Assembly (NCBI RefSeq): GCF_000346465.2 | Contig: NC_034015.1 | Location: forward strand, 7,083,980 to 7,147,979 | Source: Prunus persica | Taxonomy: Eukaryota; Streptophyta; Magnoliopsida; Rosales; Rosaceae | Length of the DNA: 64,000 nt | Reading direction: 5' to 3' | Shown here: piece by piece, positions 1,001-58,065 of the stretch | Layout of the letters: every line of letters begins with the position of its first letter | How positions within the stretch are numbered: the stretch's first letter is position 1 | Made by a program: the position numbers and the translations under genes | Notes under the pieces: model-generated | The model's database searches: none | Seen by the model: only the letters and a program-made list of their open reading frames with translations | Told to the model about the DNA's origin: nothing

Positions 1001-1079
1001 TTTTTTAGATTTGGCTCTTATTCTTATACTTCGAACCCTGAAACCTAAAATTTTCAGATTTCGCGCGACATAACATTTC

Positions 1080-1447
1080 GCTCTCTCACTTCTGCTCTAA
1101 TTAAAAGTTGCACTCTCCAGGCTCCGTCGAATCTGTGAGCTCGTCCAACCTGTAAGTATAAACCCTATCTTCCCCTTGTAAATTCATTGAATGATATTAG
1201 GTTCTTTTGTTAAAGGCTTTTATGTGTATGCTTTGCGATCTGTTAATAATGTGCTTATAGGTATGGGTTCATGGATTTTCTGTTTAATGGGTTCATGACA
1301 AGATCAAATAAAGGTGTACTTTTGCCTGGAAATCAACACAAAAAGACACAGATCACCAACTTCCAAATGATTTCCAAGCAAAAGGTACCACCTTTATGTG
1401 ATCTTGTTATTGACCGCTCTGAAAAAAATGTTGGCGAGCAACTCTGA
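1080..1447 (+). CDS. Possible 5' leader and first exon of a CACTA element gene (uncertain)
   Basis: Downstream of the left repeats the sequence becomes gene-like. A CT-rich leader at 1080-1150 ends in a good donor (CCTGTAAGTA at about 1150). An ATG at 1271 opens 58 codons to a TGA at 1445-1447 (MDFLFNGFMTRSNKG start). CACTA elements usually carry a second gene besides TNP2, and this is where it, or TNP2's 5' leader, would lie. The assembly gap at 1536 removes whatever followed. No domain is recognised. It could equally be an untranslated leader of the transposase transcript. Confidence 0.3.
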
Positions 1448-1535
1448 CACACGAATGAGTACATTGATCCTGATCATGGTGGATGCGAGTGGTGAAAACA
1501 AGGAACCGATTCTGGTTCTAATAAGGTTGTCTTTG

Positions 1536-1635
1536 NNNNNNNNNNNNNNNNNNNNNNNNNNNNNNNNNNNNNNNNNNNNNNNNNNNNNNNNNNNNNNNNN
1601 NNNNNNNNNNNNNNNNNNNNNNNNNNNNNNNNNNN
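1536..1635. other. Assembly gap of 100 N
   Basis: Exactly 100 consecutive N, the usual placeholder for a gap of unknown length, inside the CACTA element between the leader region and the transposase. Any reading frame drawn across it is not real. Confidence 0.99.
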
Positions 1636-1818
1636 CATATCTGTTATGTGAATGGGGAATGGATTTAATTTGTCGTATCTTTTAATCACCCTATGTTATG
1701 TTGAATTGGGAATGGATTTATTGTTTTCATGCTTGGTTTCATGTATATGTTGGTTTCTTGCTTGGTTTCATATATATGTTGTGTTCTTAATGGGTTTTGT
1801 GTTCTTGAAAATAAACTG

Positions 1819-2012
1819 AGACACGACGAATTTTAAGGCTTACGACGACGATTACACGACGGTTTTTTTAAACTACCGTCGTTGTATTACTTATACACGA
1901 CGGTTTTTTCATAAACCGTCGTTTGTATTACTTATAATAGACGACGTCTGTTGAAAATCCGTCGTCTATATATGCCAAATACGTCTGTTTTTGTTTAAAA
2001 CCCGTCGTCTCT
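1819..2012. repeat. Cluster of imperfect palindromes inside the CACTA element
   Basis: At least three consecutive inverted repeats built on ACGACGGTTT...AAACCGTCGT lie here, only about 100 bp before the transposase ATG: one near 1855-1885, one near 1897-1923 and a weaker one near 1930-1970. The motif matches the subterminal repeats at 7031-7053. They may be extra transposase-binding sites near the gene's promoter or the remnant of a small nested relative. Confidence 0.6.
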
Positions 2013-2113
2013 GTTGTGTATTACTTGCGATTAGATCATTGTATAATCTGCTATAGTGATGGTCATTGCCTGTATTTTCACTTTATTATAGATAATAGGT
2101 TATAGTGTCGGAG

Positions 2114-5100: not shown

Positions 5101-5464
5101 GTTTACAATCCCAGTCTTTAGGTGTGATTGGATAGATAGTTCTGGTCTTGTAGTCGACGAACTTGGATTTACCCTTGTAGATTTGAGTAAAATTGGATAT
5201 AGGAATGACCAATTTGTTTTGGCTTCTCAAGTCAAACAAATATTTTTTGTTGACGACCCGATGCATCGTGGTTGGTCGGTAGTGTTATCAATGCCTAATA
5301 GAGAATATAATGATGTTATTGGTGATGAAGTCTTAGGTGATGTGATAATTGAGTGTAAGCCATTTACTAGAGGGATGCCAAATGTTGACACATTTGATGA
5401 ACTGGTGGGTGAGTTAGGCGGTCAAAATATTCGAGATGGGTGTGAAGATATATGGATTGAATGA
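2114..5464 (+). CDS. TNP2: TNP2-like CACTA transposase, three exons
   Basis: The transposase cuts and moves CACTA elements in the nucleus. Exons are 2114-4527, 4629-4734 and 4820-5464, with donors GTACGT and GTATAT and acceptors TGTAG and TGCAG. The phases agree and give 1054 residues without a stop. I start at ATG 2114 (MDKSWMHSDRR), the usual family start; the frame is open slightly further upstream but has no ATG. Visible in order: an N-terminal transposase-associated domain with CPCVKC near residue 38; the tnp2 (Transposase_21) domain with SSDGFNP near 312 and the YGNLSGC region near 409; a DUF4218 region about 625-742; and in exon 3 a DUF4216 region about 915-990. Order and length are typical of an intact gene. 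Palindromes at 1819-2012 lie just upstream. Activity cannot be judged from sequence alone. Confidence 0.93.
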
Positions 5465-5537
5465 TGCTTATGTAATTGGCAGTGTATGACATTAATTTTG
5501 TAATATATTGTAATGTGATTTCTTCACTTTCTACGTT

Positions 5538-7060
5538 CAAATAAAACACGACGTTATTGTGAACCAGTTATTCAGCATATTTACCGACGTCTTAAAGCAA
5601 CGTAACAATGAAGAACCACGACGCAATTGTGAAGCAATTATTCAGGATATCACGTCGGGGAAGGATTAAGAACCGCCATGTAATTCAAAATAACACGACT
5701 CCAATCCCATAATACCGACGTCTAAAAAACGAGATATATAATCTGAACGTTAAAAAATACGACGTCATCATACATTTTCCACGTCGCAAGTTCTTTTATA
5801 AACGAAGAGGAACGAAATGAATTCCGACGGAAATTCATTATAACCGCCGTCTAATAACAATTAAACGACGTTATTTGTAATACGGCTCTCATCATAATCA
5901 ACGCCGTCTATATGTTCTGTAATACGGCTCTCATTTATTTGGAACCGACGTTGTTTAGAAGTTCAACGTCGTCTATATTATTAAGTGCGTCGTGAGTAAT
6001 GATGATAGATATAAATACAACGTCGACTATATAAATTCCACCGACGTTGTTTCGCATTTCAACGTCAACTGTATAAATACATACGTCGTAAATAATGACA
6101 CTGACAACTATTTCCACGTCATCTTTTTTAGAAAAATCGAAGTGGAAAATTTATTTCACGACGGTTGTTTGTAAATAAGAGACGTAGTATATTTCAATAA
6201 CGTCGTCTTCTCATGTATTTAAAGACGTCATATTTTTTCTTGTCGTGTAAATTATATTTAACGGCGTAAAATTTTAGTTGTCGTCGTTGTATGTATATCT
6301 TGCGGCCTTTTTCTTTTAACATGTGTCATATTTTTCCTTTTTAACGACGGTGATTTGTTTGAGTTGGTCGTCTATTCTCATCCTCGACTATTTTCTAGAA
6401 CTTTAGCAGACTAAACACGTCTGTTTTTATTATTTTCCGACGTTGTTTTATTTAACAACGTCTAATATTTATCGTCGTTGTTTGTTTCTGAAAATATGAC
6501 GTATAAATTTTGTAATACGACTCTCATATATTTGTAACCGACGTTGTTTCGTTTTTCAACGTCTACTCAATAAATACATACGTCGTAAATAATGACACTG
6601 ACAACTATTTCCACGTCATCTTTTATCGAAAAATCGAAGTGGAAAATTAATTTTACGACGGCTGTTTTTATATATGCGACGTAGTAGGTATCAATAACGT
6701 CGTCTTCTAATGTATTTAAAGACGTCAAATTTTTTATTGTCGTGAAAATGATATTTAACGGCGTCGTTTTTTATTTCCGTCGTTGTATGTCTATCTTGCG
6801 GCCTTGTTCTCTTAATATGTGTCATATTTTTCCTTTTTAACGACGGTTTTTTTAGAGAGTTGGTCGTCTATTCTCATCCTCGACTGCTTTTTTAGATCTT
6901 TTTGCAGTACAAAGACGTCGTTTTGTATTTGTTGATGACGTTGTATATTTTAACAACGACGGTGATTTAGCGTCGTGGTATATGATGGAAAAGATGACGG
7001 TGGATTCCACGACCATTGAAAAATCGAATACACGACGGTGATTTACCGTCGTCTTTTTGC
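5538..7060. repeat. Right subterminal repeat array with a large tandem duplication
   Basis: About 1.5 kb between the transposase stop and the terminus is packed with ACGACG, CGTCGT and CCGACGT words. A block of roughly 390 bp occurs twice in direct orientation, about 497 bp apart: near 6025-6415 and 6522-6912. Shared phrases include AATGACACTGACAACTATTT, CTTGCGGCC and GTTGGTCGTCTATTCTCATC. No coding potential is seen. Confidence 0.85.
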
Positions 7061-7108
7061 TTTTTTGTAGTAGTGATTGGAGCTTCAAATGTTTAAAACT
7101 TGAACTAA

Positions 7109-40905: not shown

Positions 40906-41659
40906 TTGGCGCCCTCAAAAAGCCCAATTCGCTTCTGCTTGGGTTCTGGTGGTTGCGTGTGGCTATGGGGTTCGAGGTGCTTGGTGCTATAACCATAAGC
41001 TTCCAATTCCAAGCTGCAATTGAACCATTGTTGTTTTTGTGTGTTGGGCTGATATTCCTATGCCACCAAATCCAAATATGCAAAAATGCCCAGCGAATGC
41101 CTTGCTGTCTTTCTGTCTTTATCTTTTTTTTCTTGAATAAATCTGCTGAGGTATGTTAATGATGATGTGCTGTGGTTTCTCTCTACTTCTTCTCTTGTTC
41201 TTCAACCGCATCATCATCACTCTGCCATTGCACTGCCGTCAACCGACATAGACCCTCTTTTTCCTATTTATGTCGATTGTTTTTGGGTCGCCTGGAGCTA
41301 GTCGGTTAAAAAGAGGCTCTACTTCTCTCTCGATTTCTCTTTTATAAATAACCGCTTAATTACACCAATTTACTCTAAAATTCGGTTAAATCTCACTTTA
41401 CTCTTTCAAACTAAAAATTGTCAACTTTCATCCCTTCATCCAAATTTGGTGACCTACTTTGTCTTCTGTCATCAACTCCATCTAAAAATATGTTAACTTT
41501 GATGACGTGATTGAGGTATCTGTGTAATAGGAGCTCAAGGGTGGAACCACACTAAGGGCTACAGTGGGTTGTAGCCTAGTGTGGTTTTTTAAGAAAAAAA
41601 TTATAAAACCTATATATTTAACTTACTTTCAATGTTAGTTCAATCATTGGCACAGTACA
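40906..41659. other. 5' flank of the Nudix gene and spacer
   Basis: On the minus strand TATA-like sequences occur near 41262-41275 (CATAAATAGG) and 41338-41352 (TTATTTATAAAAG). Either could serve the Nudix gene, with a leader of about 330-410 bases; neither is proven. A short palindrome, ACCACACTAAGGGCTACA...TGTAGCCTAGTGTGGT, lies near 41550-41586. Confidence 0.4.
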
Positions 41660-42062
41660 GATTACCTTACTTTCATTTTCAGCATTTAAGTAAATGTCTT
41701 TGTCATTTTACTTTTATTTATTTTTATATTACTCCATTTACTTAAGTTTACAATGTAAATAAAGCAGTACCCCCTTTTGGATTCAAATAAAAATACTAGA
41801 AAATCAAATTCTCACCAAATCAAAATAAGAAAAATTGGTTTTAGTGCAAAATACGATTTAGGCTAAAAATGATGGCTCACTAAGTCAATATATACTTCAT
41901 ACTAAAATCCCATAAAATCAAGTTTGCTTATTTGATGTATGAGGAATAAAAGCTGCCAAAAATTATCTTGAGAAAATGATTATTCCGAAAACCCATTTTC
42001 ATACTTAGTCAATATTTTTACATAAAACAACTTTCATGTATAATATGAATGCATGAAGGAAC
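41660..42062 (+). repeat. Left part of an old repeat interrupted by the Tat element
   Basis: Inverted match to 16230-16638. The repeat resumes after the LTR element at 56390-56425. It ends with GGAAC, the target duplication. Confidence 0.8.
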
Positions 42063-43552
42063 TGTTTGGGCCTAAATTTGACACACCAAAGAGATCCAGA
42101 AACAGGCCCGTGGTGAAATACTTATCCGGTCCCAAAAAAACCCAAAACGTAGAAAGCTGTCATATTGGGCCTTTGAAGATCAACCCACAAAATATTGTTT
42201 AAACTCAAGCCCAAGAGACTAAAGACACATTCACGTGGCTACCTCACCTCTCTGGAAAGTCAGCAATTCCAACTAGAGTTTTTATGTGAGAAGGGACGTT
42301 TCTGAAAACACTGCCGAGAAAGAAAAATCAAAGGGGCGTCTATGATCAGAGACTTTTTGCTCCAAAGCAACACACTATCTTCTAAAAAGATTTCGCAAAT
42401 CACGTTTTCAAGAGCAAGAAACAGGGAGTTGTTCAGAAAATACAAAAGAAAAATCAAAACCGCCATAGGATCAGCTCACACAGACGGTGGCATTAAAATA
42501 GAAAAAAACGTCAGCCAGGAAACCAGGGAAGGGATCGCTATAGGAAGTGACCACTGGGAGTCTATCTGCCATAATTGATAAAAATCTTTCCTGCTTTACG
42601 TTTTGAGAAATCTTTTGCCGCCCATTATTAAAATTTAAAACCACCTTCAAAAGGAGGGTCTCTTATAAAAACAGAAGCAGGCAAGAAAGAAAGGACACTC
42701 AACTCATCAACCAAAAAAAACAACAGCAAGAAAAACAGCCAAGAGCTCACTTAAATTCCAAGAGGAACCAACCTTAAATCAGAATTCCAAGGTTCAGACT
42801 TAGAAAACAAATTTCCTAGAACGAGATCCCTCGTTACAAATTTGGTTCAGCAAAAGCCAAGACAAACATAGTTTGAGTTTTCACAACTATGAAAACCTTA
42901 ACAAATTTTACAGCATGGTTCCAGCTTGCTAAATCCTCGAGAATAGCCACTTCTGTCCCTTCAGACTGAAGAAGTCACAGTTCTGCCCGCTCAAGAGCCT
43001 CCCAAGGCTTGAAGTAGATTGAAGCTCTGCCAAAATCGAACTTTGGTATCGATTTACAGCTGAAGCCAAGCAGCTAAAGTTGTTGACAGTACAGTCCAGC
43101 ATAGACATACCCAGTCCAGCCCGGATCAGAAGTTTCTACCCAGGCAGAAATGGGATTCCAACCATCCTTTTGCCTTCCTAGAGTTGATTTCTCCCTTCTT
43201 AATTTTGTAAAAGGCAGTTCTGCCTGAAACAGTACTTTATTATTATCTATTCTGGCCAGAACAACCATTTTTGGTACTGAGATAAATTGTGAAAGTCCTC
43301 ACCAGTCTGAGGCAAGAAAAGAACTTACTTGGGAGATATTCCTCACCCAAATTCACAATCGTTTGTTTTAGAAGTCAGTAACTTGAGGCGCAAGTTATCC
43401 ACTCTAAAAATAAGTCTGCTAGAATTTACATTGCTAGCAGTGGCACGCTCGCACACCAAAGAAAGCTGACTTGTCGACCAACAAGTGGTCTCCAAGCCAG
43501 TGGGGAACTTCGCCCTTCCACATCAGGAGTTAAACACGAAAACGGGTGAACA
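42063..43552 (+). repeat. Tat element 5' LTR
   Basis: 1490 bp. A TATA box TATAAAA lies at about 42664-42670, so transcription probably starts near 42695. Reading frames inside (for example 42342-42578) are repeated in the other LTR and match no protein. Confidence 0.96.
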
Positions 43553-43575
43553 ATTTGGCATGCCCAGTGGGACTT
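43553..43575 (+). promoter_or_regulatory. Primer-binding-site region
   Basis: ATTTGGCATGCCCAGTGGG directly follows the 5' LTR. It resembles the TTTGGCGCC...GTGGG start of the internal region in other Tat elements. The primer tRNA was not determined. Confidence 0.6.
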
Positions 43576-43651
43576 CTCAGTATACATACTCTGACAGAGT
43601 CATTCACAGATTTACAAAAGCCGGAAGATCTAGTCAGAACCCACACCAGAC

Positions 43652-46381
43652 ATGGAGAAAAACAAGATGGTTCTCAGAGAAGGCCTCGAATCGGAAGAAA
43701 GCGACGCTAGGCAGTCTGCCCACGGCAGTACAGGAAGCAGACGTTCCAGGACTGGCTCCAAAAGGATGAGCCAAATAAAGGAGTCAGTACTCCGACAAGA
43801 GATCACAGTACAAAGGAGCCAGGACACTCTCGATAACATGACAGCCATGATGCAATGGCAGGTAAACAGGCAGTTCCGGAAGGACCGAGAATCCGCCATG
43901 GCCAGAAATCCAAACCCAGATCCTGTAATCCAGCAGTTGGATCTTCCTTATGGCCCTCCGCCAGGACTAATATGGCCATATCAGGAAAATCTTCTAGTTG
44001 CACAGATGGCTGGAGTGCCAGGCCACACAGAAGTTCAGGCTGATCCGAGGGAGAGAGCCCTTCCTAATCAAGAACATCAGGCCCCAGCCCAGCCAGATAA
44101 CCTGACACTGGCTCAGAACCAGCTAGGACCTCAGCCCAATTCACATCATGCAGCCCCGCATGATCAACCTTTGGCGCTTCTGCCTGAACCACCGGCAGTA
44201 TTGCCATATAGACCCAGAAGGATGGACCCTAATCCATTCCCTCCACCTGCAAGAGGGAGGAGAGGCCGAGGGGGAAACAACCTTTTTGCTAATCATGACA
44301 GGAATAGACAGGGGGCAAACTGGAGGAATCATCCAGAAGTCGAAGAGCAGGAAGAACACAGGGAGGAAGTTCCACCCAGACCACTCAGGGCAGAACCCAG
44401 GTTTGATTACGTTCAGCCAGAATAGGGACAAAATTTTCCCCCAGTCAATGCTTTAAATGACGTAGGGGCATTGCGAAGAATGGTCAGAGAGATCATGGAA
44501 CCCGAGGCTAGAAGAGGGGAAAGGCCTACTTACAGAAAGCCATACCCAGCCTACATCGATCAAATACCGTTGTCTCCAGGTTTCAAAGTGCCAAACTTCA
44601 CTTTGTTCAACGGGGAAGACCCTCATGCTTCCTCAGTCGAACATATAGGCAGGTTCTCCGTCCAATGCATAGCTATAGAAAACAACCCTCTGCTGAAATT
44701 AAGGCTTTTTGGCAACTCTCTCTCTGGGCAAGCTTTTACCTGGTACACCAGCCTGCCAGCTAACTCTGTTCAAACCTGGGAACAGATGGAAAATGTCTTC
44801 CATGACTACTATTACAGGATTCAGCCAGAAGTCACCATCAGTGATCTAGCTGCCCTCAAGCAGAGTGAAGATGAACCGGTGCAAGATTTTATAACCAGGT
44901 TCAGAAGGCTCAAGATGAAGTGCCGAATCCCAATGGAAGAAAGACACTTCATCCAGATGGCCCAAGCCGCCCTTAAAATCTCCCTCAGGAAAAGGTTCGA
45001 CGGGATATTGTTCGGAGATCTGGCAGAACTGGCTGATAAGGCATCCAAATATGAAGAGCTACTCAGGGAAGAGCAGCAAAGGAGGAACTCCTCCAAAGGT
45101 ACATACTACAAAACCCCTTCTTCTTCAGTCCACCTGATCGAGGTGGAGTCGCAAGAAGATACAGAGGAATCAGAGGAGAAAGAGGTTTCAGTGGCAGAAA
45201 TGGCAAAATTGAAACATCCCATCAGTTGCAAAGCCCTCACAAAGCCACCCAAAGACCAAAAGCCACCATCATTCACAGGAGGATTCGTTCCAAACAAACC
45301 AACACAAAACAAGGTTTACTCTTTTAACTTAACCAAGGTCGATGCCTTGTTCAACGAAATGCTACTGCAGAAGGCAATAGAGACGCCTCACAGAATACCG
45401 AAGCCGGAAGAACTCAAAGGCAGACAGTACTGCAGGTGGCACAACTCTTGGAACCATTCTACCAATAGTTGTGTCGTTTTCAGGGACGTAGTACAAGAAG
45501 GAATAACGGCAGGAAGGTTGAAGCTGGCAGAAAAACCACCATCCGTCACGACGGATCCTTTTCCTCAACCGCAAGTCAATATGGTCAACTTAAATTGGCC
45601 AGAACAGAGGAAAATCGACCCTATCACAGATGCTTGTTGCAGCAGAGGCAGAAGAATCATAAGGGAGACCAGTCAGATACCAAGAGCGACCATCTCGGCT
45701 GGGGTGGTGCTCTGCAGTAGGTGCAAGTGTGAAACAGAGCTAGAGGTGGTCCTAGACAAGCAAAATCAGCCCACATCTAGTGTCTTTGACAGAATTGGAA
45801 CTATATCCCAAGACAAGACAAGGCAGAAGAGCTGTCTTAGGCCTACACACTACAGCGAGAGGAGGATGGAGCAACCCAGGAAGGAAATATCAGTCAAGAC
45901 GCCCGGAAACGAAAGACCCTTGGCAACGATCATAGAAGGGAGGTGGTATTCCGTAGGAAGAAGCGGTAGACCGACTCTGGAGCTGACCAGAACCCAGAAG
46001 AGAAGAATCCAGAGCCAATACTGCACATATCTTAAAAGCCAAGACAATACGCAGGTACGTCCACAACCCAGTTCTGCCAGGAAAGGAAAGAATCCTGAAA
46101 CACTTCCCCAGACAGAACAGAAAGCTTGCCAGTCAAGGGAATTGCTGAAAACAGAGCAGCCAGCCAGGTCTCCTATCCATATAGCCTCGTCGTCCGGCAG
46201 CCATCCTGACACCACGCGGACATTAGAGAAATCCGGGTCTACCCCGTTACAAAAAGAAGACGACTACGCTGAGGAATATGAAGAAGAGCAATTAGACTAT
46301 GAACCTTCTGCAGATGATCAGAAAGAGCCCCTCGAAGTAGCAGAACAGGAAAGAGCCCCTCGAAGTAGCAGAACAGGATGA
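43652..46381 (+). pseudogene. Tat element gag, interrupted
   Basis: Gag forms the particle that packages the element RNA. The frame starts at ATG 43652, about 100 bases after the LTR. It is closed by an in-frame TAG at 44423-44425 and continues in the same frame to 46381. The part after the stop contains the retrotransposon gag domain (about 44640-45110: FTLFNGEDPHASSVEH, TWYTSLP, FRRLKMKC) and a zinc-binding-like YCRWHNSWNHSTNSC near 45430. The tail is acidic and repetitive. A 28-bp tandem duplication at 46321-46376 shifts the frame and ends it at 46381, before the protease. The stop could be a mutation or, less likely, a readthrough signal. Confidence 0.88.
46321..46376 (+). repeat. 28-bp tandem duplication that shifts the gag-pol frame
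   Basis: Two identical 28-bp units starting GAAAGAGCCCCTCGAAGTAG are adjacent at 46321-46348 and 46349-46376. As 28 is not a multiple of three, the second unit moves the frame by one, exactly accounting for the change between the gag frame and the protease frame that follows. Confidence 0.95.
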
Positions 46382-46409
46382 CTGGACGGAAGAATATGGG
46401 GAAGAATTA

Positions 46410-47297
46410 ATGGAATTTGGTGAGGAATTGGACCCAGAAACAGAAGCTTTTGGCGCAGAATTAGAAGACCTCCTACAGGGTGATCTGGGAATTAACATGG
46501 TATTCATCCTACCAGGTGAATTCAGGGCTACCGAAGGACAAAAAAGCACTCTGGAAGGGGACGTTTTCTCCCAGGAGAGCTTTGAGTGTAGGTTGGCAGA
46601 AGCAGAGGAGCCGCCAGAACCGCAAGCAGACGGCCCTAGGACAGGCAGAACAGCCAATAAACCAGCTACAGAGCAGGCTTGTTTCGCCAAGCTAACCAGA
46701 GAAATGGCAAATCACCTCAGACCGTTGTTTATAACGGCAAATCTTGGAGGTATTCCTATCTCCAATATCATGGTAGATGGAGGTGCAGCCATTAATCTAT
46801 TACCCCACAGAATGCTGACCAAGTTGGGCAGGACAGAGAGGGATCTAATTCCAACACGATTAACCGTCACCAACTTCGCTGGGGGCATCACCAAAATACA
46901 CGGCATCTTAGATGTAGATGTCGTAGTCGGAAGCAAAGAGTTGAAAATAGCATTCTTTGTTATAGACACTACCTCCACCACCTACAATGCACTACTCGGC
47001 AGGGATTGGATTCACCAGAGCCTTTGTATCCCTTCCACCCTCCACCAGCAGTTAGCAATATGGAATGAAGAAGGCTGCATGGAGATTATAGAGGCCGATC
47101 CACGGCCATTCCTACCCTCTGCCATGTGCTTTGAAGCAAGGTATTATCATGATGACCTCGGTCCCTACACTTTCCTTGGAGTCAATCAGAACGGCCGCCC
47201 CCATGGTGTCACGGCCCAAAGACTCATTGAAGAAGGTCTAGCCAGTTCTCTAGAGGACTGGAATAGACTTTCTTGTGCCGAACTTCCAGAATTCTGA
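46410..47297 (+). CDS. Tat element aspartic protease region
   Basis: A 295-codon frame in a different phase from gag. It carries the retropepsin-like motif MVDGGAAINLLP at residues about 120-130, in which the second active-site position is Gly as in many Tat proteases, then a typical YNALLGRDWIH near residue 195. The first 70 residues are acidic and continue the gag tail. The ATG at 46410 is probably not a natural start: the frame is likely expressed as part of a polyprotein in intact relatives. It overlaps the RT frame by 25 bases. Confidence 0.85.
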   Translation: MEFGEELDPETEAFGAELEDLLQGDLGINMVFILPGEFRATEGQKSTLEGDVFSQESFECRLAEAEEPPEPQADGPRTGRTANKPATEQACFAKLTREMANHLRPLFITANLGGIPISNIMVDGGAAINLLPHRMLTKLGRTERDLIPTRLTVTNFAGGITKIHGILDVDVVVGSKELKIAFFVIDTTSTTYNALLGRDWIHQSLCIPSTLHQQLAIWNEEGCMEIIEADPRPFLPSAMCFEARYYHDDLGPYTFLGVNQNGRPHGVTAQRLIEEGLASSLEDWNRLSCAELPEF

Positions 47298-50200
47298 TGC
47301 TTAGTCCCAATCAACTGGACAAGGATCGAGCTGCAACAATCCGATCCATCACAAAAAGATTGTTGATATACTGGGGAGAAATGAGACTTTTCATACAGAA
47401 TCCAGCCATTAATATGGCAGAATTCACCCATGAAAGCATAAAAGAACAAGAGGAAGAAGTTTTACAGGAGGAAGTGTTGGAATTTGCACCGGCAGCACTA
47501 GATGACTCCCTGCCAGAAGTAGAGGACCCTCTACAGGAGATAAACTTAGGGACAGAAGAAGATCCAAGGCCTACTTTCATCAGTACACTGTTAAAGGAAC
47601 CACTCAAGGCTGAACTCACGGCACTTTTGCAGGAGTTCAGAGATTGTTTTGCCTGGCATTACCACGAGATGCTAGGATTGGACAGGCAGTTAGTGGAGCA
47701 CAAGCTGCCAATTAAAGATGGCTACCTTCCAGTCAAACAGGCCAGAAGAAGAATGTCTATGGACACAGAACTAAAGGTCAAAGAAGAGATAGAAAGGTTG
47801 CTCAAGGCAGGATTCATCAGGCCAGCCGTCTATGCCGATTGGTTAGCAAATATTGTACCTGTTCTCAAAAGAAAAACAGGGGCAGTTAGAATCTGCGTAG
47901 ATTACAGGAATCTGAATGAGGCATCTCCTAAAGACGAATATCCTATGCCAATGGCAGACATGTTAGTGGATGGAGCCGCTCATAACCAGATGCTATCTTT
48001 CATGGACGGCAATGCAGGTTATAACCAGATTATGATGGCAGAACAGGACATCCACAAGACAGCCTTTATGTGTCCAGGACATATAGGTGCTTTCGAGTAT
48101 ACTGTAATGCCTTTCGGTTTGAGAAATGCGGGAGCTACCTACCAAAGGGCAATGAATTCTATTTTTCATGATATGATAGGACATTCTTTGGAAGTATACA
48201 TAGATGACGTGGTGATTAAATCCCCTGAGGAAGGAAATCACGTAGCAAGTCTGAGAAAGGCATTCCTGAGAATGAGGCAGCACAAGCTAAAAATGAACCC
48301 CAAAAAATGTGTTTTTGGAGTCCAGGCAGGGAATTTCTTAGGATTCTTGGTCCACCAAAGAGGTATAGAGGTTGACAGAAATAAAGCAAAATCCATCATA
48401 GAAGCTCTACCACCTCGGAACAAGAAGGAACTTCAGAGTCTCTTAGGAAAAATCAATTTCCTAAGGAGATTCATATCCAATTCTGCAGGAAAAATCCAAC
48501 CCTTTTCCTCCCTGTTGAGACTGAAGCAGGAACAGACATTCAAATGGGAAGAACAGCACCAACAGGCTTTCCAGGAAATAAAGCATTACCTCTCAAATCC
48601 ACCAGTTCTGTCCCCACCAAAAAGGGGCAGACCCCTCAAACTTTATGTATCTGCATCAGAAGTATCCATTGGAAGTCTGCTAGTTCAAGATAACAAAGAA
48701 GGAAAAGAACAGGCGGTCTACTATCTAAGCAGAACGTTGACAGAAGTGGAAAGAAGGTATTCCGCAATAGAAAGGCTTTGCCTAGCCTTATATTTCACTG
48801 CTGTGAAGCTCAGGCACTACATGCTGCCACATACTATCTACATCATTGCCAAAACCGACTTAATCAAATACATGCTAACAAGACCAATGCTGAGGGGCAG
48901 AATTGGGAAATGGACTTTGGCTTTGACAGAATTCACCCTCAGGTATGTCCCCCAGAAAGCTGTCAAAGGGCAAGCTGTGGCAGACTTTTTGGCAGATCAC
49001 CTGGGAGAGGAAATTGAAAACATGGATTCTTTGGACATAGCAAATGCAGATCTGTTAACTAGAGCTCATGTTTGCCTTAACAATCCAATTTACTCGATTC
49101 ATCTCACACCTTGGAAATTATATTTTGATGGATCGAAGACAGACAAGGCTTCAGGAGCAGGGATTGTTCTGGAAGAACCATTAGGGGTCAGGCATTGCTA
49201 TTCTTTCCAGCTAGATTTCCAATGCACCAACAACAGGGCCGAATATGAGGCTTTGATTATAGGGCTCGAAATGTTGGTAGAATTAGGAGTCCAGTCCGTG
49301 GAAATCTTGGGAGATTCCATGCTTGTCCTAAAACAGATTGCTGGAGAATATAAGTGTCTGAATCCCTCTCTGGCTGTATATCTAGTGGCAGCTAGAAATC
49401 TGCTAACAGAATTTAGAGAAGCTACTTGGGAGCACATCCCAAGGGAGAAAAACTTTGCAGCCAATGAACTGGCTCAGGTGGCATCAGGCATACAAATGCC
49501 CGAAGACTGCGTCCAAAGGATCATCAAGATAGGAAGGAAAAGTCTACCATCTGTTTTGACGAGAGGAATGGAGATAGAAGTCAATTCTGCCTCGATCACT
49601 GGAGATGAGTGGAGGGAGCCTATCATGACTTACTTACGATATCCCACTCTGCCCTCTGAGAAAAGAGTCAGAATCATGGCTACAAACTACCTCATGTGGA
49701 ATGAAGATTTGGTCCGAAAAAGTAAGGATGAGGTACTATTAAGGTGCCTCGGGAAGACAGAATACATGAAAGTCATGGGAGAAACCCATGAGGGGGTCTG
49801 TGGAGCTCACCAAGGGGGAAGAAAGATGTGCTGGTTAATCAGAAGATATGGCTACTTCTGGCCAACCATGATGAAGGATTGCATCGACTATTCCAAAGGA
49901 TGTGAAGCCTGTCAAAGGCACGGCCCAATCCAGCAGGCTCCTTCGGTTCCCATGAATCCAGTAGTAAAACCATGGCCTTTCAGGGGATGGGCAATGGATC
50001 TCATTGGCAAAATCTATCCAGCCAGCAACCAGCAGCACTGTTTCATCATCGTTGCCACAGATTATTTCACCAAGTGGGTAGAAGCCAAGCCAGTAAAAAC
50101 CACAACATCTCAAGAGATCATCACCTTCATAGAAGAACAGATCATACAAAGGTTTGGCATTCCAGAATCAATCACAACCGATAGGGGTTCTTCTTTCATA

Positions 50201-50776
50201 TCTAGGGACATGCTAGATATGGCAGAAACATTCAAGTTCAAACTGCTTCAATCTACTCCTTACTATGCTCAAGCTAATGGACAGGCAGAATCAAGTAACA
50301 AGGTGATTATCAATATCATTAGAAAGATGCTAGAGAAAAATCCAAAGCAATGGCACGAGAAGTTGTCAGAAACTTTGTGGGCATACAGAACTTCGAAGAG
50401 AGAAGCGACTGGCATGACCCCCTATGCTCTAACCTACGGCCACGATGCAATTCTTCCCATGGAGATAGCAGTCCAGTCCCTTAGAATTGCTCACCAGCAT
50501 GGTCTCACTGGGGAGGATTACTCCCAAGCCATGTTACTGGAATTGGAAGGATTGGATGCAAGCAGAATTGATACCCTCAACAAACTCTTAGCAGGAAAAC
50601 AGGCTGTATCGAGAGCCTACAACAAAAGAGTCAAAAACAAGAGTTTTGAAGAGGGAGAGATAGTCTGGAAGGCAATTCTGCCCCTTGGAGCACACATAGC
50701 TGGGTATGGGAAATGGTCACCTACATGGGAAGGCCCTTTTATAATTAACCAAATCCTCGGAAAGGAACAACATTGA
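47273..50776 (+). CDS. Tat element reverse transcriptase, dual RNase H and integrase
   Basis: 1167 codons. In order: RT with the YIDDV catalytic motif near residue 309; the connected RNase H (LKLYVSASEVSIGSLL) near 460; a second, archaeal-like RNase H (YFDGSKTDKASGAG near 617; NNRAEYEAL; GDSMLV); a zinc-binding HHCC region (about 830-881); and the integrase core with D in AMDLIG (about 908), D in TTDRGSS (about 969) and E in QAESSNK (about 1005). The C terminus stops at EGPFIINQILGKEQH, somewhat short of the usual family end. The start in this frame overlaps the protease frame, so the true junction involves a frame change near 47273-47297. Confidence 0.93.
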   Translation: MCRTSRILMLSPNQLDKDRAATIRSITKRLLIYWGEMRLFIQNPAINMAEFTHESIKEQEEEVLQEEVLEFAPAALDDSLPEVEDPLQEINLGTEEDPRPTFISTLLKEPLKAELTALLQEFRDCFAWHYHEMLGLDRQLVEHKLPIKDGYLPVKQARRRMSMDTELKVKEEIERLLKAGFIRPAVYADWLANIVPVLKRKTGAVRICVDYRNLNEASPKDEYPMPMADMLVDGAAHNQMLSFMDGNAGYNQIMMAEQDIHKTAFMCPGHIGAFEYTVMPFGLRNAGATYQRAMNSIFHDMIGHSLEVYIDDVVIKSPEEGNHVASLRKAFLRMRQHKLKMNPKKCVFGVQAGNFLGFLVHQRGIEVDRNKAKSIIEALPPRNKKELQSLLGKINFLRRFISNSAGKIQPFSSLLRLKQEQTFKWEEQHQQAFQEIKHYLSNPPVLSPPKRGRPLKLYVSASEVSIGSLLVQDNKEGKEQAVYYLSRTLTEVERRYSAIERLCLALYFTAVKLRHYMLPHTIYIIAKTDLIKYMLTRPMLRGRIGKWTLALTEFTLRYVPQKAVKGQAVADFLADHLGEEIENMDSLDIANADLLTRAHVCLNNPIYSIHLTPWKLYFDGSKTDKASGAGIVLEEPLGVRHCYSFQLDFQCTNNRAEYEALIIGLEMLVELGVQSVEILGDSMLVLKQIAGEYKCLNPSLAVYLVAARNLLTEFREATWEHIPREKNFAANELAQVASGIQMPEDCVQRIIKIGRKSLPSVLTRGMEIEVNSASITGDEWREPIMTYLRYPTLPSEKRVRIMATNYLMWNEDLVRKSKDEVLLRCLGKTEYMKVMGETHEGVCGAHQGGRKMCWLIRRYGYFWPTMMKDCIDYSKGCEACQRHGPIQQAPSVPMNPVVKPWPFRGWAMDLIGKIYPASNQQHCFIIVATDYFTKWVEAKPVKTTTSQEIITFIEEQIIQRFGIPESITTDRGSSFISRDMLDMAETFKFKLLQSTPYYAQANGQAESSNKVIINIIRKMLEKNPKQWHEKLSETLWAYRTSKREATGMTPYALTYGHDAILPMEIAVQSLRIAHQHGLTGEDYSQAMLLELEGLDASRIDTLNKLLAGKQAVSRAYNKRVKNKSFEEGEIVWKAILPLGAHIAGYGKWSPTWEGPFIINQILGKEQH

Positions 50777-50964
50777 CCTTTTTGTTTCTTGAAAGGGAAT
50801 CTTGTTTAGATTTGTTTTTACTTTAAAGTTGTTCTGTTTTTACTGTACTTTCAAAACCGTGTCCGGTTATTGCATCAAGAATAAAAAGCAGTAAAAATGC
50901 TTTGAAAGCTTATATAAAAATAGCCACCTTTACGGCAAATTATTCAAACAAAAGAAAGAAGAAG
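50777..50964. terminator. Convergent intergenic segment between pol and the antisense gene
   Basis: 188 bp separate the sense pol stop from the antisense gene's stop. An AATAAA occurs at about 50881 on the plus strand. Transcripts from both sides must end or overlap here. No structure beyond AT-rich sequence is evident. Confidence 0.4.
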
Positions 50965-53900
50965 CTAAAATCCTAGCTTTCTAAGAGTCTCCTGTAGGTT
51001 CGCTTTCTTGACAGACAGTTCTTTCTGGAGCAACACCCCCTGGTGAATTGAAGCCTCTGCAATTTCCAAAGCTGGCCTGGAAGCTGCAACCATACTTTGC
51101 ACAAGGAAGGTGGCCTTAGTTTTGGAACTCAGTCCAGCCCCAAGTTTGTTCTGCACCTCCCTACACTCTGCCAGCTGTTTTTGGAGTTCTTCAATCTGCT
51201 TCTCCAACTTATCCGCGGTAGCCTTAGCCTCCTTATATCCAGCCACCATCTGATCCAGTTCTGTTTTCTGCCTGGCAAAGTCAGCCAGATTAGCTTTATG
51301 TGTGGCCTTGCAGAACTCAGAAGTTTTGAACGTAGGCCTAAGATCTTCATAGCGATCATGCAGATTAAGCACATCTCTGGCCAGGCTTAGGCCCATCTCA
51401 AGAATAGGCCTCGGAGCCATGTTCTGTCTATGCAGCAGGTCCAGGTCCTTCATCAGCTGATCAAGAGCCCCTGTATCTTCATCAAATTCCAGCTCAGTGG
51501 ACTGCCAGATTTTCAACCTCTCCATGGCTTCCTCCACCGCCCTAGATTTTGCCTTGCCTGGAGGAGAGCTGAGTTTCTCCAGTCTGTCCAATTGGGCATC
51601 CAGATCCATGGCTTCAAACTCTTCAAGTTCTGGATCAGCAAAAGAAGCCGTGACAGATGATCCTGGAAAGGAATGAATAGGCATCTGCAGAAGAGAACAT
51701 AAGCTAAGACCAGGCAGAAAGTGGAAGATAAAGGAGGCTCGAAAGTTATGAAAACTTACAACGACAATGGGAGGCTTCAGAGGGCTGGACACCGCAGCCA
51801 GGGCACCAGTAGCTTTAGGCACTTCCACCTGGAAAGACTGCAAATGTTAAAAAGACAGAACAGACAGAACAGCAGGAAAACATGAACAGTTGAAGGGGAA
51901 AATTACCACAACCACAGGAGCAGCTGCAGTCGTTCCCACCTCAGCCTCCGGGACCACAACGGTTAATTCTGCCTGATCCACGGGGTCTGATGCAGATGGC
52001 TCCACCTGATCCTCGGCCTCTGGAGCGGCAGTAGAGTGTTCTGCCTCAGCATCCTCAAAAAGAGCCAGTTCTGAGCTGGTCAGCTCAGCACTCGGACCCT
52101 TTTGTTGCTTCTGCGCCAAGGCAATGCTCTCCGCTATCACCTCAGCAGGAATTTCATCCTACAGGAAGGGGGTCAGAACAGAAGGAATGAAGCAAAAGAG
52201 GAACTAATGCGAGTCACAAACTAAAACTCACCTCGTCTTCCACCGCTGCCACCTTCTCTTGGGGCACCTCCTCCAGCTCTTGCAGCTCTTTTTCCTGCTC
52301 CACCTCCTCAAAGGCTTCTCGCAGCTCATCGTCCGTCCCAGAAGTAGTGGCTGGGATTGCTGCGGCTTCTTCTGCGGCAAAGTATTCCACTTCACCCCTC
52401 TTCTTAAGCTTTTTTAACTTAGTAGGAGGAGGAGAAGGACTCCCAGCTGGACAGAACAAAAGGAAAAGATTAGAAAACAGAAAACAGAATAAATCTAGAG
52501 AGAACAGTTGGAATGCTCCAAACTTACCAGGAATGCCAGGCCGCGTGGTATTATCCAGAGGGGGAGCAGGCCCTTTTCTTTTTCTTCTACCAGAAGGAAC
52601 AGCCTCGGCAGGGGTTTGTTCTGCCTCAACATCATCCTCTTCATCAGCAGAAGGGAGCTCCAAATCCCCGGCGGCAATGACAGAAGAGACTTGAGGACAA
52701 TCCAACAGGAAAAGACAGAAGAAAAATAAAAAGGAAAGGCTTACCAATCACTTCTCCAGCCTGGACAGACTGTCCACCCACGTTCTTTGTCAGGGAAGGA
52801 TCTAATAACAGGCAGAACATAGGTTAAAAACAGATTATCAAGACAGAACAAGTCCCAGACAGAATCAAGTATCTACCTTCTATAATTTGTGCATTAATGT
52901 CCTTGATGGTCTGGATCATATGCGCTTTGGCCTCCCCCTCCGCAAAAAGATGCCAGTTCTCCCAGCCGTCAAAAAGCGTCTTGAGGACAGTAACAGAAGC
53001 TGGTAGATTTTGGAATCTGGTTTGCCACCAGGCGTCAAAATCAGCAGAACTCCAGGAATTTGGCTCCCATGAGGGATAGAGGGCATCCGTGCTATTATTT
53101 ATCTTGTTCACTGCACACCGGGCATCCTTGTGCACCTCCAGATCATCTACATCCCTCCAAGAAGAGGCCCGATTGCAACTCCGATATGATTTCAATGGTA
53201 TGAGCTGAGGGCAGCCAAGCTGCCTTGCACAGAAGTTGGGATGATAGACTTCTGCCCCCAGATGATAGTTTGGAGGTTTGCCCCCGCCATGGGGCAGATC
53301 TCTGGGCAAAGTAATGCTCAGAAATTTCTTCCTGAAACCTGTTCTGGCAGCCTCGTCTTCTGGTTCTTTCTCGAAAAGCCGAGATCCAGTCTGGAACCAA
53401 GGATAGGTCCTTCTGATCACCACTTGCCACTGAGCAGCCGACCTCTTGGTACAATGCCTGAAGAGCATCAAATACTCCTCAAGAGAGCGCTTGGGCACTT
53501 CTGCCGATATCAGGGGAAGGGCCAGAACTTGGTCTTCAGGCAGAACTATGTCTGGAAACCTTAACTCGGGGAAATATACCTGCAGCCAGATCTGGATCAT
53601 CCAGAATGCGCCAGGAGCAGACAGGTTCAATGGATTCTCAAGAGTGGCAGTATACAGATTCTTGAAAAGGTGGGCCAGAACTGTTGGTCCAAGCCCCACA
53701 TCAGTGTGATTGTGAAGTGCTTCTGCCAGATGTCTGTATTCAAGCAGAACTGCCGAAGACCGATTGGGGAAGACAAATCGGTTCAGCCAATACAGAAGGA
53801 ACAACATATGTTGCTGATCCTTGTCCTTCTCAACGCTGAATCTCTTCAGATAGTTGGAGAAGGAGCAGTTCTGGTTGATCGTGGCTGGAGGGATAGTGAA

Positions 53901-54539
53901 GGGAGTGGCCACTTTCTCCTGGTTCTTTCGCCTGTGATAATCCCCAACAGCATCAACAGGTCTGCCATGGGGCCTAAACCCAAAAATCTGAGCCATATCC
54001 AGCAGAGTTGGAGCCATGGGACCCACACGGAAATCAAATGTGTTGCTGGCAGAATTCCAAAAACACAAGGCAGCAGCAAGCAGGTTCTCATCTCTGTTAA
54101 TCGACTGCTTGGACAGAAGAATGGCGTCATAGAGCCCAGCTCTCCTCCAGTGACCCCCATATCTCGGGAGAAGTCTGTCAATCCAGTCTGCCCATTTGAC
54201 TGGACTGTTCCTCACCTCGCTGGACGGGAAAGATCGACTCAAATTCTTGCTAACCCAAGAATGAGAAGCCAGGGCGGAAGTACTCTCGAAGCACAAAGGA
54301 GCCTCGGCGTCCTTTTTCAGCAGTTCTGCCGCCTCAGCCGGAACAGGGCCAAACCAGTGAGGCCCCAGCACCAGGGTATTCTCGAACAAATGAAGAACAT
54401 TTTCATCCAGATTCTTCTGAGCAAAAGGATGGAGCTTGCTCCTAACCTCTATTGCGTGGGCATCAATCCCGCTCCCAGTGATGTAATCAGGAGGGATTGA
54501 AGCTGAAGAAGACTGAGCATGGGACCTTGGGGAAGACAT
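50965..54539 (-). CDS. Antisense seven-exon gene for a plant mobile domain (PMD) protein inside the Tat element
   Basis: Minus-strand exons: 52877-54539, 52745-52801, 52528-52689, 52232-52446, 51907-52158, 51760-51837 and 50965-51684. All six introns are GT-AG, with pyrimidine-rich acceptors in most. Phases agree throughout and give 1048 residues without a stop. Exon 1 is a PMD (aminotransferase-like plant mobile domain): WADWIDRLLPRYGGHWRRAG, LYDAILLSKQSI, ALCFWNSASNTFDF, GPMAPTLLDMAQIFGF. Exons 3 and 4 are acidic with basic clusters GRRKRK and KLKKLKKR, possible nuclear signals. The last exon is helical with a coiled coil (about FARQKTELDQ to AECREVQNKL). PMD proteins occur both in transposons and in host silencing factors of the MAIL/MAIN group. 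Function here is unknown. Extra antisense ORFs have been described in Tat elements; the intact multi-exon structure is what I see here. Confidence 0.85.
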
Positions 54540-54834
54540 TTCGGATTCAAGGAAGGAAGCAGAGAGAAAAGGGGGAAGTTCGAAGGAAACGATGAAAACC
54601 CGAAGAGAAGTTCCAAGTTTGAAAGGCTAAGAGGCAGTGGGTCTGAAATTTCTTTTAAAAGGGAAGGCTCGAAACGTGAGAGGAAGAAGAAGATACGGCA
54701 GCTGGTGATTATTGGCTAGTAACTAGCCAAATAAATAGCCGTTTTTCTTCTCCCACGAACTCTAGATCATTATGGGCGGACGTGACAGACGCACGAAGCG
54801 GAAAGGACTGGCGCGCAAATTCATGGCAAAAACA
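54540..54834 (-). promoter_or_regulatory. Probable promoter and leader of the antisense PMD gene
   Basis: On the minus strand a TATA-like CTATTTATTT lies at 54731-54740, about 195 bp before the ATG at 54539. A perfect 19-bp palindrome TTGGCTAGTAACTAGCCAA occupies 54712-54730, just downstream of it. A second AT-rich candidate (CCCTTTTAAAAG) is near 54655-54666. Transcription is not shown. Confidence 0.45.
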
Positions 54835-54884
54835 TTAAGTCTGAAAAACCGTTCCAAAAACAAGTTCAGACTTAATGGGGGCAT
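54835..54884 (+). promoter_or_regulatory. Stem-loop and polypurine tract before the 3' LTR
   Basis: TTAAGTCTGAA (54835-54845) and TTCAGACTTAA (54865-54875) form a perfect 11-bp stem with a 19-base loop. The polypurine tract TGGGGGCAT follows at once and abuts the LTR. The tract primes plus-strand DNA synthesis in LTR elements; the role of the hairpin is unknown. Confidence 0.7.
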
Positions 54885-56384
54885 TGTTTGGGCCTAAATT
54901 TGACACACCAAAGAGATCCAGAAACAGGCCCGTGGTGAAATACTTATCCAGTCCCAAAAAAACCCAAAACGTAGAAAGCTGTCATATTGGGCCTTTGAAG
55001 ATCAACCCACAAAATATTGTTTAAACTCAAGCCCAAGAGACTAAAGACACATTCACGTGGCTACCTCACCTCTCTGGAAAGTCAGCAATTCCAACTAGAG
55101 TTTTTATGTGAGAAGGGACGTTTCTGAAAACACTGCCGAGAAAGAAAAATCAAAGGGGCGTCTATGATCAGAGACTTTTTGCTCCAAAGCAACACACTAT
55201 CTTCTAAAAAGATTTCGCAAATCACGTTTTCAAGAGCAAGAAACAGGGTGTTGTTCAGAAAATACAAAAGAAAAATCAAAACCGCCATAGGATCAGCTCA
55301 CACAGACGGTGGCATTAAAATAGAAAAAAACGTCAGCCAGGAAACCAGGGAAGGGATCGCTATAGGAAGTGACCACTGGGAGTCTATCTGCCATAATTGA
55401 TAAAAATCTTTCCTGCTTTACGTTTTGAGAAATCTTTTGCCGCCCATTATTAAAATTTAAAACCACCTTCAAAAGGAGGGTCTCTTATAAAAACAGAAGC
55501 AGGCAAGAAAGAAAGGACACTCAACTCATCAACCAAAAAAAACAACAGCAAGAAAAACAGCCAAGAGCTCACAAGAGCTCACTTAAATTCCAAGAGGAAC
55601 CAACCTTAAATCAGAATTCCAAGGTTCAGACTTAGAAAACAAATTTCCTAGAACGAGATTCCTCGTTACAAATTTGGTTCAGCAAAAGCCAAGACAAACA
55701 TAGTTTGAGTTTTCACAACTATGAAAACCTCAACAAATTTTACAGCATGGTTCCAGCTTGCTAAATCCTCGAGAATAGCCACTTCTGTCCCTTCAGACTG
55801 AAGAAGTCACAGTTCTGCCCGCTCAAGAGCCTCCCAAGGCTTGAAGTAGATTGAAGCTCTGCCAAAATCAAACTTTGGTATCGATTTACAGCTGAAGCCA
55901 AGCAGCTAAAGTTGTTGACAGTACAGTCCAGCATAGACATACCCAGTCCAACCCGGATCAGAAGTTTCTACGCAGGCAGAAATGGGATTCCAGCCATCCT
56001 TTTGCCTTCCTAGAGTTGATTTCTCCCTTCTTAATTTTGTAAAAGGCAGTTCTGCCTGAAACAGTACTTTATTATTATCTATTCTGGCCAGAACAACCAT
56101 TTTTGGTACTGAGATAAATTGTGAAAGTCCTCACCAGTCTGAGGCAAGAAAAGAACTTACTTGGGAGATATTCCTCACCCAAATTCACAATCGTTTGTTT
56201 TAGAAGTCAGTAACTTGAGGCGCAAGTTATCCACTCTAAAAATAAGTCTGCTAGAATTTACATTGCTAGCAGTGGCACGCTCGCACACCAAAGAAAGCTG
56301 ACTTGTCGACCAACAAGTGGTCTCCAAGCCAGTGGGGAACTTCGCCCTTCCACATCAGGAGTTAAACACGAAAACGGGTGAACA
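54885..56384 (+). repeat. Tat element 3' LTR
   Basis: 1500 bp. It differs from the 5' LTR by eight substitutions and a 10-bp tandem duplication (AAGAGCTCAC twice near 55562-55581), which accounts for the length difference. Confidence 0.96.
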
Positions 56385-56389
56385 GGAAC

Positions 56390-57185
56390 CTAAGGTCAAT
56401 CTATGGTAAAAAGTCTTAGATGTTCAATCCACTATGGTGTTAAACCTTATTTGGTTATGTTAAAACTTATTGAGAATTAGTCTATGGAGCTATGAACTAG
56501 TTTGGTTTACATGATTTAATGTTTACTTTTATTTCTAGAAAGACTATAGAAATTGTAAGTACCAAAAAAAAATAATTATTAAATTTTAAGCTAATAACTT
56601 TAGCTAGCCCACCTGTTGAAAAATTTATGGTTCTGGCCTTGTAGGAGCTTCACTATTATACCAAAAATAGGAGATGAATTTATAATTAAAAAAACCACAT
56701 ATAATGCACTTTAAAAACACACCCAAAATTCATTTACTATATAACAAATTGGTGTTGAAGTTCCTATAAATTACAGGACTGCAACTGATCAAGCCTAACA
56801 TAAAAAATAAAAAATAAAAAAATAAAAAAAAGAAGCTCAAAAAGCATCCAAAACAACCCTAGCCCATTCTCATAAAAAAGCCCAAACTTTTTTTTTTTTC
56901 GGTTACAAAAACCCCAAACATTTTACCATCTCGAAAATCATAACTTTACTTCAAACACGCTGCTTCATTAAATCATCTTTGCAAAACGTCTCTTCATTTC
57001 ACCGTCTTCATCAAAGCGTCTTTATCATTTATGCAAACCGAAACTCCATAACTACCACCAACCTTGATCTACTTTCAAAAACAGACACCACACACTGACC
57101 TCCACCTACAAAACCAACACAAAAGTTAAGAGAACAATTTCAACAAGAAAACGCTTCAAAGGTAAGACATTTACAAACCAAACCT
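56390..57185. other. Right end of the old repeat, then spacer
   Basis: 56390-56425 continues the repeat interrupted at 42062. The remainder is AT-rich with A and T tracts (56560, 56800-56835, 56888-56900) and no gene seen. Confidence 0.5.
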
Positions 57186-57189
57186 TAAC

Positions 57190-58065
57190 TGTAATGTTGA
57201 TTAATTGCTATAAAGTTCCAGTTTAGGGTAATAGTAGTATTTTAAATTCGAATCAAGGACAAAATCTTGAAATTATATTGGATTTTCACTATTCGACTGC
57301 CTGCATAGGACCATAAAATAGTCGGTTTTCAGCAACTCAAAAAAGAAAGAGATATTTAGTCATATATCCATTCTTACCACCGGTAGTTTACTGTCATGTT
57401 GATTAATGGCTGTAAAGTTCCAGTATAGGGTAATAACACTACTTGTTTCATATGAAATCCTATTTTCTAATGCATGTCTACCACTATAAAGTTCCAGTCT
57501 AAGGTAATAATATTGCTTGTTTCCTATGAAATCCTATTTCTAATGCATGTCTACCACTATAAAGTTCCAGTCTAAGGTAATAACAGTACTTTAAATTTGA
57601 ATCCAGGACAAAATCTTGAAACTATAATGGATTTTCACTATCGGACTGATTGCATAGGACTATAAAATAGTCGGTTTTCAGCAACTCAAAAAGAAATAGA
57701 TACTTAGTTATATACCCATTCTTACCACTTCTAGTTTACTATTATGTTGATTAATGGCTGTAAAGTTCTAGTATATGGTAATAACACTGATTGTTTCCTA
57801 TGAAATCCTATTTATGATGCATGTCTACCACTGTGAAGTTCCAGTATAGGATAATAACACTACTAGATTCCTATGAAATCCTATTTCTAATGCATGTCTA
57901 CCCCCTGTAAAGTTCCAGTATAGGCTCATAACACTGCTAGTTTCATATGAAATCATATTTCTAATGTATGTCTACCATTGTAAAGTTTAGGGTATTAACA
58001 CTGCTACTTTATTGTCATGTTGATTAATGGTTGTCTGTTGCTATTTCTAATGCAAGTATACCAAA
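57190..58065. repeat. Nested tandem repeat array upstream of the Ulp1-like gene
   Basis: A unit of about 85-90 bp (TAAAGTTCCAGT(A/C)TA(A/G)GGTAATAA ... ATGAAATCCTATTTCTAATG ... CATGTCTACCACT) recurs about seven times. Within it a longer block of about 190 bp (AGGACAAAATCTTGAAA ... AAATAGTCGGTTTTCAGCAACTCAAA ... TACCAC) occurs twice, at about 57250-57385 and 57600-57735. Confidence 0.85.

Follow-up and report, generated by a model that had tools for sequence, protein, structure and literature searches.

An intron-bearing antisense plant mobile domain gene in a young Ty3/gypsy retrotransposon of peach

In a stretch of 64,000 nucleotides of Prunus persica contig NC_034015.1, which as a whole is called the window here and to whose positions all coordinates refer, a young Ty3/gypsy long terminal repeat (LTR) retrotransposon carries a gene for a protein with a plant mobile domain (PMD). 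The gene (50965-54539, minus strand) sits between pol and the 3' LTR of the element; it is a selected antisense accessory gene, and its introns travel with the element. We also propose, with belief and doubt evenly balanced, that it acts as an anti-silencing device through TTCTGYC sites in the manner of VANC21.

The antisense gene and its copies

When we rebuilt the spliced model from the sequence, it reproduced the seven minus-strand exons, six GT-AG introns (55-81 nt) and 1048 residues of the initial annotation, with no internal stop. Exon 1 (52877-54539) holds the start codon, the PMD and the VANC21-like predicted fold, and exons 3 (52528-52689) and 4 (52232-52446) carry one basic cluster each. 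Exons 2 (52745-52801) and 5 (51907-52158) were placed by the spliced model and the alignment of copies, and exon 7 (50965-51684) encodes a conserved C-terminal part including the stop. The acceptor of exon 6 (51760-51837) is ambiguous: a second AG 9 nt downstream (51830-51829), present in 33 of 35 aligned rows, would move the exon start to 51828, and three aligned Prunus models lack three residues at this point. In exons 1, 5, 6 and 7 the coding frame is stop-free and both remaining frames are interrupted by stops. Two independently annotated proteins, P0001 of Prunus brigantina (1038 aa) and P0002 of P. armeniaca (1048 aa), matched the model at 80% and 79%, respectively, with 100% query coverage. 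Another P. armeniaca model, P0003, lacks the exon 3 residues, either by alternative splicing or by the predictor's choice, and several Prunus dulcis proteins that match the PMD gene, among them P0016, P0018, P0019, P0027 and P0034, are labelled 'autoinhibited Ca2+-ATPase 11', apparently a misannotation.

The peach genome gave 120 PMD matches. Going down the score-ranked list, we fetched 40 places with the match type of the window, skipping two near neighbours; the sample therefore leans toward good PMD frames. As many as 37 of the 40 stretches match the 3' LTR over at least 600 bp. Alignment to the window retained 36 of them (L026, L037, L041 and L042 were excluded for low coverage), and removal of L024 and L031, which have large gaps, left 34 copies for the counts.

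Purifying selection on the antisense frame was supported across these copies. Splice dinucleotides were retained in 401 of 408 cases (donor GT 201/204, acceptor AG 200/204), against a mean of 22.7 of 34 copies for ordinary intron dinucleotides, 24% of which are still present in at least 33. Changes per site on the tree amounted to 0.29 for splice bases versus 1.28 for intron bases, with none of 20,000 random sets of intron sites being equally quiet, and indels were about 40-fold rarer in exons (0.44 per kb per copy) than in introns (18.2). Median dN/dS, computed over 594 of the 595 pairs, dropped from 0.53 in close pairs (dS < 0.05, 18 pairs), where it is raised because of decay after insertion, to 0.105 in distant ones (dS ≥ 0.3, 390 pairs, range 0.081-0.142). 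By part, among 26 distant copies, values were 0.06 for the PMD and for exon 7 and 0.15-0.20 for exons 2-6. Alternative frames of exons 1 and 7 gave values of 1.5-2.4 (10 of the 34 copies), the exception being the complementary frame that shares the codon phase (0.14 and 0.13), which is interrupted by 23 and 6 stops, respectively. The antisense protein is under selection comparable to that on pol, whose dN/dS was 0.12 in the single distant copy compared.

With the window included, the spliced frame is open in 8 of 35 rows, and in 5 of the 35 all splice sites are intact as well. L037, with 77% identity in exon 1, has the same set of exons. Both splice dinucleotides stand at their positions in introns 1, 2, 4 and 6, intron 3 has a displaced donor, and a deletion covers the donor position of intron 5. 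Values of dS exceed intron divergence (median ratio of 1.76 in the most distant bin); part of this excess may arise because copies are mosaics. Judged from identity profiles, they look like mosaics of the kind that template switching produces: relative to the copy L048/L053, identity per 150-bp step is 94-100% in pol (47300-50750) but 76-84% in the centre of the gene and 73-78% in the U3 region (51800-55400). Ahead of the antisense start codon, 54540-54884 (minus strand) is presumed from position and divergence to hold the gene's promoter and 5' UTR, and it is hypervariable among copies. Around it, two 150-bp steps upstream of the antisense start (54500-54799) show 69-82% identity relative to L025, L009 and L015, and the gene steps at 51200-54050 show 91-100% in L025 and 89-100% in L009, with 93-98% in the adjoining LTR U3 of L025. 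From such profiles, the antisense promoter seems to have been swapped or to be evolving on its own.

The expectation that antisense introns survive retrotransposition was borne out by a genome-wide pattern search allowing up to three mismatches. The spliced exon 1-2 and 6-7 junctions, which were the ones covered among the six, had no match, against 63 intron-bearing boundaries for intron 6/exon 7, 51 for exon 6/intron 6 and 17 for intron 1/exon 2. Being antisense, these sequences do not function as introns in the sense RNA that serves as template for reverse transcription, and hence they are copied intact. Candidate reasons for their retention are mRNA export, mRNA shielding and motif sites. 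According to a recent review, plant LTR elements are generally intron-free, with Ogre and EVADE as notable exceptions (PMC12786077). Like the peach element, these two contain introns within a retrotransposon, but theirs are spliced out of sense transcripts whereas the six described here are antisense. Intron number varies among PMD families, since L049 and L050 encode the PMD in one open reading frame (ORF) each, of 934 aa and 979 aa, respectively. Together with L051 and L052 they represent additional families of PMD elements in peach, all with long PMD ORFs.

The host element and the encoded protein

The initial annotation had placed the intact gene within a young LTR element, and the boundaries agree with this. 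The 5' LTR (42063-43552, plus strand, 1490 bp), followed by a primer binding region, pairs with the 3' LTR (54885-56384, plus strand, 1500 bp) with 8 differences in 1490 aligned positions (1482/1490 identical), and the target duplication GGAAC flanks the element at 42063-56384. On the plus strand lie gag (44471-46381, 636 aa, PF03732), an aspartic protease ORF (46410-47297; PF13975, a weak match below its cut-off) and pol (47273-50776), in which Pfam domains follow the order reverse transcriptase (PF00078), RNase H (PF17919/PF17917), second RNase H (PF13456) and integrase (PF00665). Dual RNase H has been described as a trait of the Tat lineage (PMC9289625), which the second RNase H of pol matches. 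At 43652-46381 a single in-frame stop separates gag from an ORF of 257 aa in the same frame, the protease being in a different one, and the end of gag contains a perfect 28-bp tandem duplication (46321-46378). No Rfam match over 41500-57000 reached its gathering score.

The predicted plant mobile domain was recovered by Pfam at residues 135-328 (E 4e-38), and the basic clusters reported with it are conserved as well: RRKRK (608-612, exon 3) is kept in 37/37 aligned rows, and the second cluster (about 637-645, exon 4) remains basic in 37/37 with small changes. Both look like nuclear import signals. The predicted fold of the exon-1 protein (residues 63-521) matches the solved part of VANC21 (structure 9lnj). 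An earlier structure model, built from a 10-row alignment, had a mean pLDDT of 35.8 and was not used. Against Pfam at E ≤ 10 the exon-1 protein gave only the PMD and a weak DUF7763 match, DUF1985 being unmatched; the genome contains 149 DUF1985 matches, none of them in the window. Since DUF1985 is unmatched and the element is not a VANDAL, the gene is not a VANC member, yet it probably works like one. A sequence-profile search of the PDB with one alignment found nothing at E ≤ 1; with another alignment it returned 81 rows at E ≤ 10, of which the 60 displayed resemble coiled-coil chance matches. A viral structure library gave nothing at E ≤ 0.001.

In a tree that comprised no published PMD-A1/A2 reference sequences, a split with support of 100 separates the element PMD, together with Prunus and Malus PMD proteins, from peach MAIN and the other peach PMD genes. 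The description of the gene as host-like is not supported on this ground, and recent capture of a host gene is likewise contradicted by the split.

TTCTGYC sites and the proposed function

TTCTGCC is the top over-represented 7-mer of the element, with 32 sites versus 6.4 expected when one LTR is counted. With both LTRs, 35 of the 39 sites of the window spread across 42063-56384 and 4 lie in the remainder. TTCTGTC is raised 3.75-fold (18 vs 4.8), all others of the 21 single-letter neighbours reaching at most 2.9-fold. Taking all coding parts together, TTCTGCC occurs 25 times versus 5.1 expected, with a statistic of 19.7, whereas across 300 synonymous shuffles no 7-mer exceeded 8.7; the corresponding counts of shuffles were 0/300 for gag-protease-pol alone and 5/300 for the PMD coding sequence alone. 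When shuffles also kept dinucleotides, the excess persisted in gag (6 vs 1.4) and in the PMD gene (10 vs 3.7; 0/120 each), as did that of TTCTGYC in pol (13 vs 6.5, 0/120). The protease taken alone showed no significant excess. Introns contain 8 TTCTGYC sites versus 0.42 expected (0/2000) and the LTR 3 versus 0.4, with zero sites in the presumed promoter patch and at 50777-50964 and no tandem arrays found in the element. Among the codon pairs used for Ala-Glu, GCA-GAA occurs 18 times against an expectation of 6.3, and GCT-GAA a single time against 6.7. In 37/37 aligned rows the gene region has 8-14 TTCTGCC sites versus 1.9-2.8 expected, the rows being homologous and hence not independent. L049-L052 have 1-2 TTCTGCC sites each, close to expectation.

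A motif proper to each PMD family was also considered but not supported: CACGTGA in the L049 ORF exceeded shuffles (0/300), but its near-palindromic sites were counted twice, 34 and 18 of 300 shuffles did as well as the top 7-mers of the L051 and L052 ORFs, respectively, and the tandem-rich ACTAGTC of L037 was judged a local repeat. CGGCAGC and GCTGGAA are over-represented in L051/L052. A CACTA element elsewhere in the window serves as a yardstick: within its block, the ACGACGK repeats rank highest among 7-mers. CACTA subterminal repeats bind the element's own protein.

Starting from the computed gene structure, purifying selection, intron persistence, VANC21-like predicted fold and motif excess, we infer how the device could operate. 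The gene belongs to the element; a promoter of its own would drive transcription, splicing would join the seven exons, and reverse transcription of the sense RNA would pass its introns on uncut. The protein, with its N-terminal PMD part, basic clusters and conserved exon 7, would enter the nucleus and bind short TTCTGYC-type sites across the element's own copies; such binding may keep those copies unsilenced, as VANC21 does for VANDAL21. That the gene might counter silencing had been suggested in the initial annotation. The VANC21 match speaks for this still hypothetical function, an idea whose general form had already been published (PMC8616336).

Several observations would fit a motif excess that reflects bias in codon pairs or in composition, or else a signal for splicing or at the RNA level, unrelated to a protein whose VANC-like fold is real and which binds other sites. 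In pol, TTCTGCC is not significant under the strictest shuffle (7 vs 4.1, 10/120; dinucleotides kept), 15 of 20 coding-strand GGCAGAA sites share a single frame, on visual inspection the sites in introns seem to share the orientation of the gene, and the core TTCTG is over-represented too (135 vs 91.0). Against this explanation, the excess extends to introns, the LTR and coding frames of both strands, TTCTGTC is the single strongly raised neighbour and L049-L052 are free of excess; we regard it as tenable but doubtful. Somewhat less likely in our view is a conserved accessory protein with a different job, for example bringing the pre-integration complex into the nucleus, selecting integration sites or regulating the element's transcription, in which the PMD serves as an interaction domain and binds no motif. 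The selection and splicing data would fit it equally well, the basic clusters are conserved, and published suggestions for antisense ORFs are along these lines (PMC7264820), but it leaves both the VANC21 fold match and the element-wide motif excess unexplained.

Regulation by antisense RNA, in which the transcript pairs with genomic RNA as double-stranded RNA and the protein is incidental, has been proposed for antisense ORFs (PMC7264820), and phased siRNAs from PMD genes are reported in tea (PMC10673657); it is very improbable, since dN/dS of about 0.10 together with splice-site conservation indicates that the protein itself is selected. Finally, PMDs also occur in host genes such as MAIN, but passive cargo from a recently transduced host gene has next to no likelihood given the tree split, selection across many copies and the same architecture down to about 77% exon 1 identity, with full-length relatives in P. 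armeniaca and P. brigantina.

Elsewhere in the window, a CACTA-type transposon occupies 1-7080, with ORFs matching Transposase_21, DUF4218, Transpos_assoc and DUF4216, ACGACGK repeats dispersed on both sides and an N run at 1536-1635. Tandem repeats of 73 and 348 bp lie just downstream of the LTR element (57208-58011).

Known systems and meaning of the finding

PMDs in plant Ty3/gypsy elements have been assigned to clades PMD-A1 and PMD-A2 (Ikeda et al. 2017, PMC5418596). Like those genes, the peach gene encodes a PMD inside a Gypsy element and is distinct from host MAIN/MAIL genes; unlike PMD-A as published, it is antisense and divided into seven exons by six conserved introns, its predicted fold resembles VANC21, and a motif specific to the element accompanies it. 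Neither 'antisense' nor 'intron' occurs in the main text of that paper. In position and orientation the gene resembles the extra antisense ORFs that Grande (gene23), RIRE2 and Retand carry between pol and the 3' LTR (PMC11963269, PMC7264820). For Grande, a review reports a nuclear location of the antisense protein and a separate promoter for it (PMC7264820, PMC11963269). TRP28 was present in 97% of surveyed Retand clusters (PMC11963269), whereas the peach gene has a PMD instead; TRP28 (PF04195) has 20 matches in the peach genome and none in the window. That 2025 survey used ORF Finder, and 'intron' is absent from its main text (PMC11963269); our results suggest that ORF surveys without splicing truncate such genes.

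The sequence bound by VANC21 is YAGTATTAY; its signals lie in non-coding parts of VANDAL21, among them introns, and hypomethylation spreads further than these. VANC6 targets carry AGTTGTCC/AGTTGTAC, and VANC genes have diverse introns (PMC5735166). Shared with these systems are the predicted fold and an intron-bearing gene within a transposon, and the excess of the candidate short motif across the element and its introns is reminiscent of them. A PMD protein with such a fold, conserved basic clusters and a candidate motif of comparable length spread over its own element would fit a device of the same type in an LTR retrotransposon. The peach gene differs in that its host is an LTR retrotransposon rather than a VANDAL and its domain a PMD rather than DUF1985, and its candidate motif also lies in coding regions and without tandem repeats. 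MAIN and MAIL1 likewise combine a PMD with a role around transposable element silencing (PMC7156037, PMC9899485), but they form a separate clade and the window has no exact site for the DOWN motif CATGCAGTTT. Exact sites are also absent from L009-L053, and one-mismatch sites number 5 versus 6.2 expected in the window, one of them within the element.

In published work the PMD is called a domain of unknown function (PMC9289625, PMC8616336), and its use as a possible counter-silencing tool has been proposed (PMC8616336). Our literature search found no report of conserved introns in an antisense retrotransposon gene, nor of an element-wide motif. A PMD-VANC fold link was not found either in searches that did not use VANC by name, and it may be in print.

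The peach element provides a clear natural example of spliceosomal introns outlasting retrotransposition through antisense orientation. We put forward only tentatively, at somewhat less than even confidence, that PMD and VANC proteins form one fold family of sequence-specific DNA binders, and that the antisense intron-bearing PMD gene of an LTR retrotransposon frees its own copies from silencing via a motif placed in LTRs, introns and, by synonymous choice, both coding strands. Should the Gypsy PMD share the fold of VANC21 and have a target motif, the counter-silencing idea in the literature becomes testable by a single DNA-binding assay, and the question of whether MAIN/MAIL1 derive from transposon proteins would gain concrete form. 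If the wider proposal is true, the host silencing proteins MAIN and MAIL would be kin of transposon anti-silencers.
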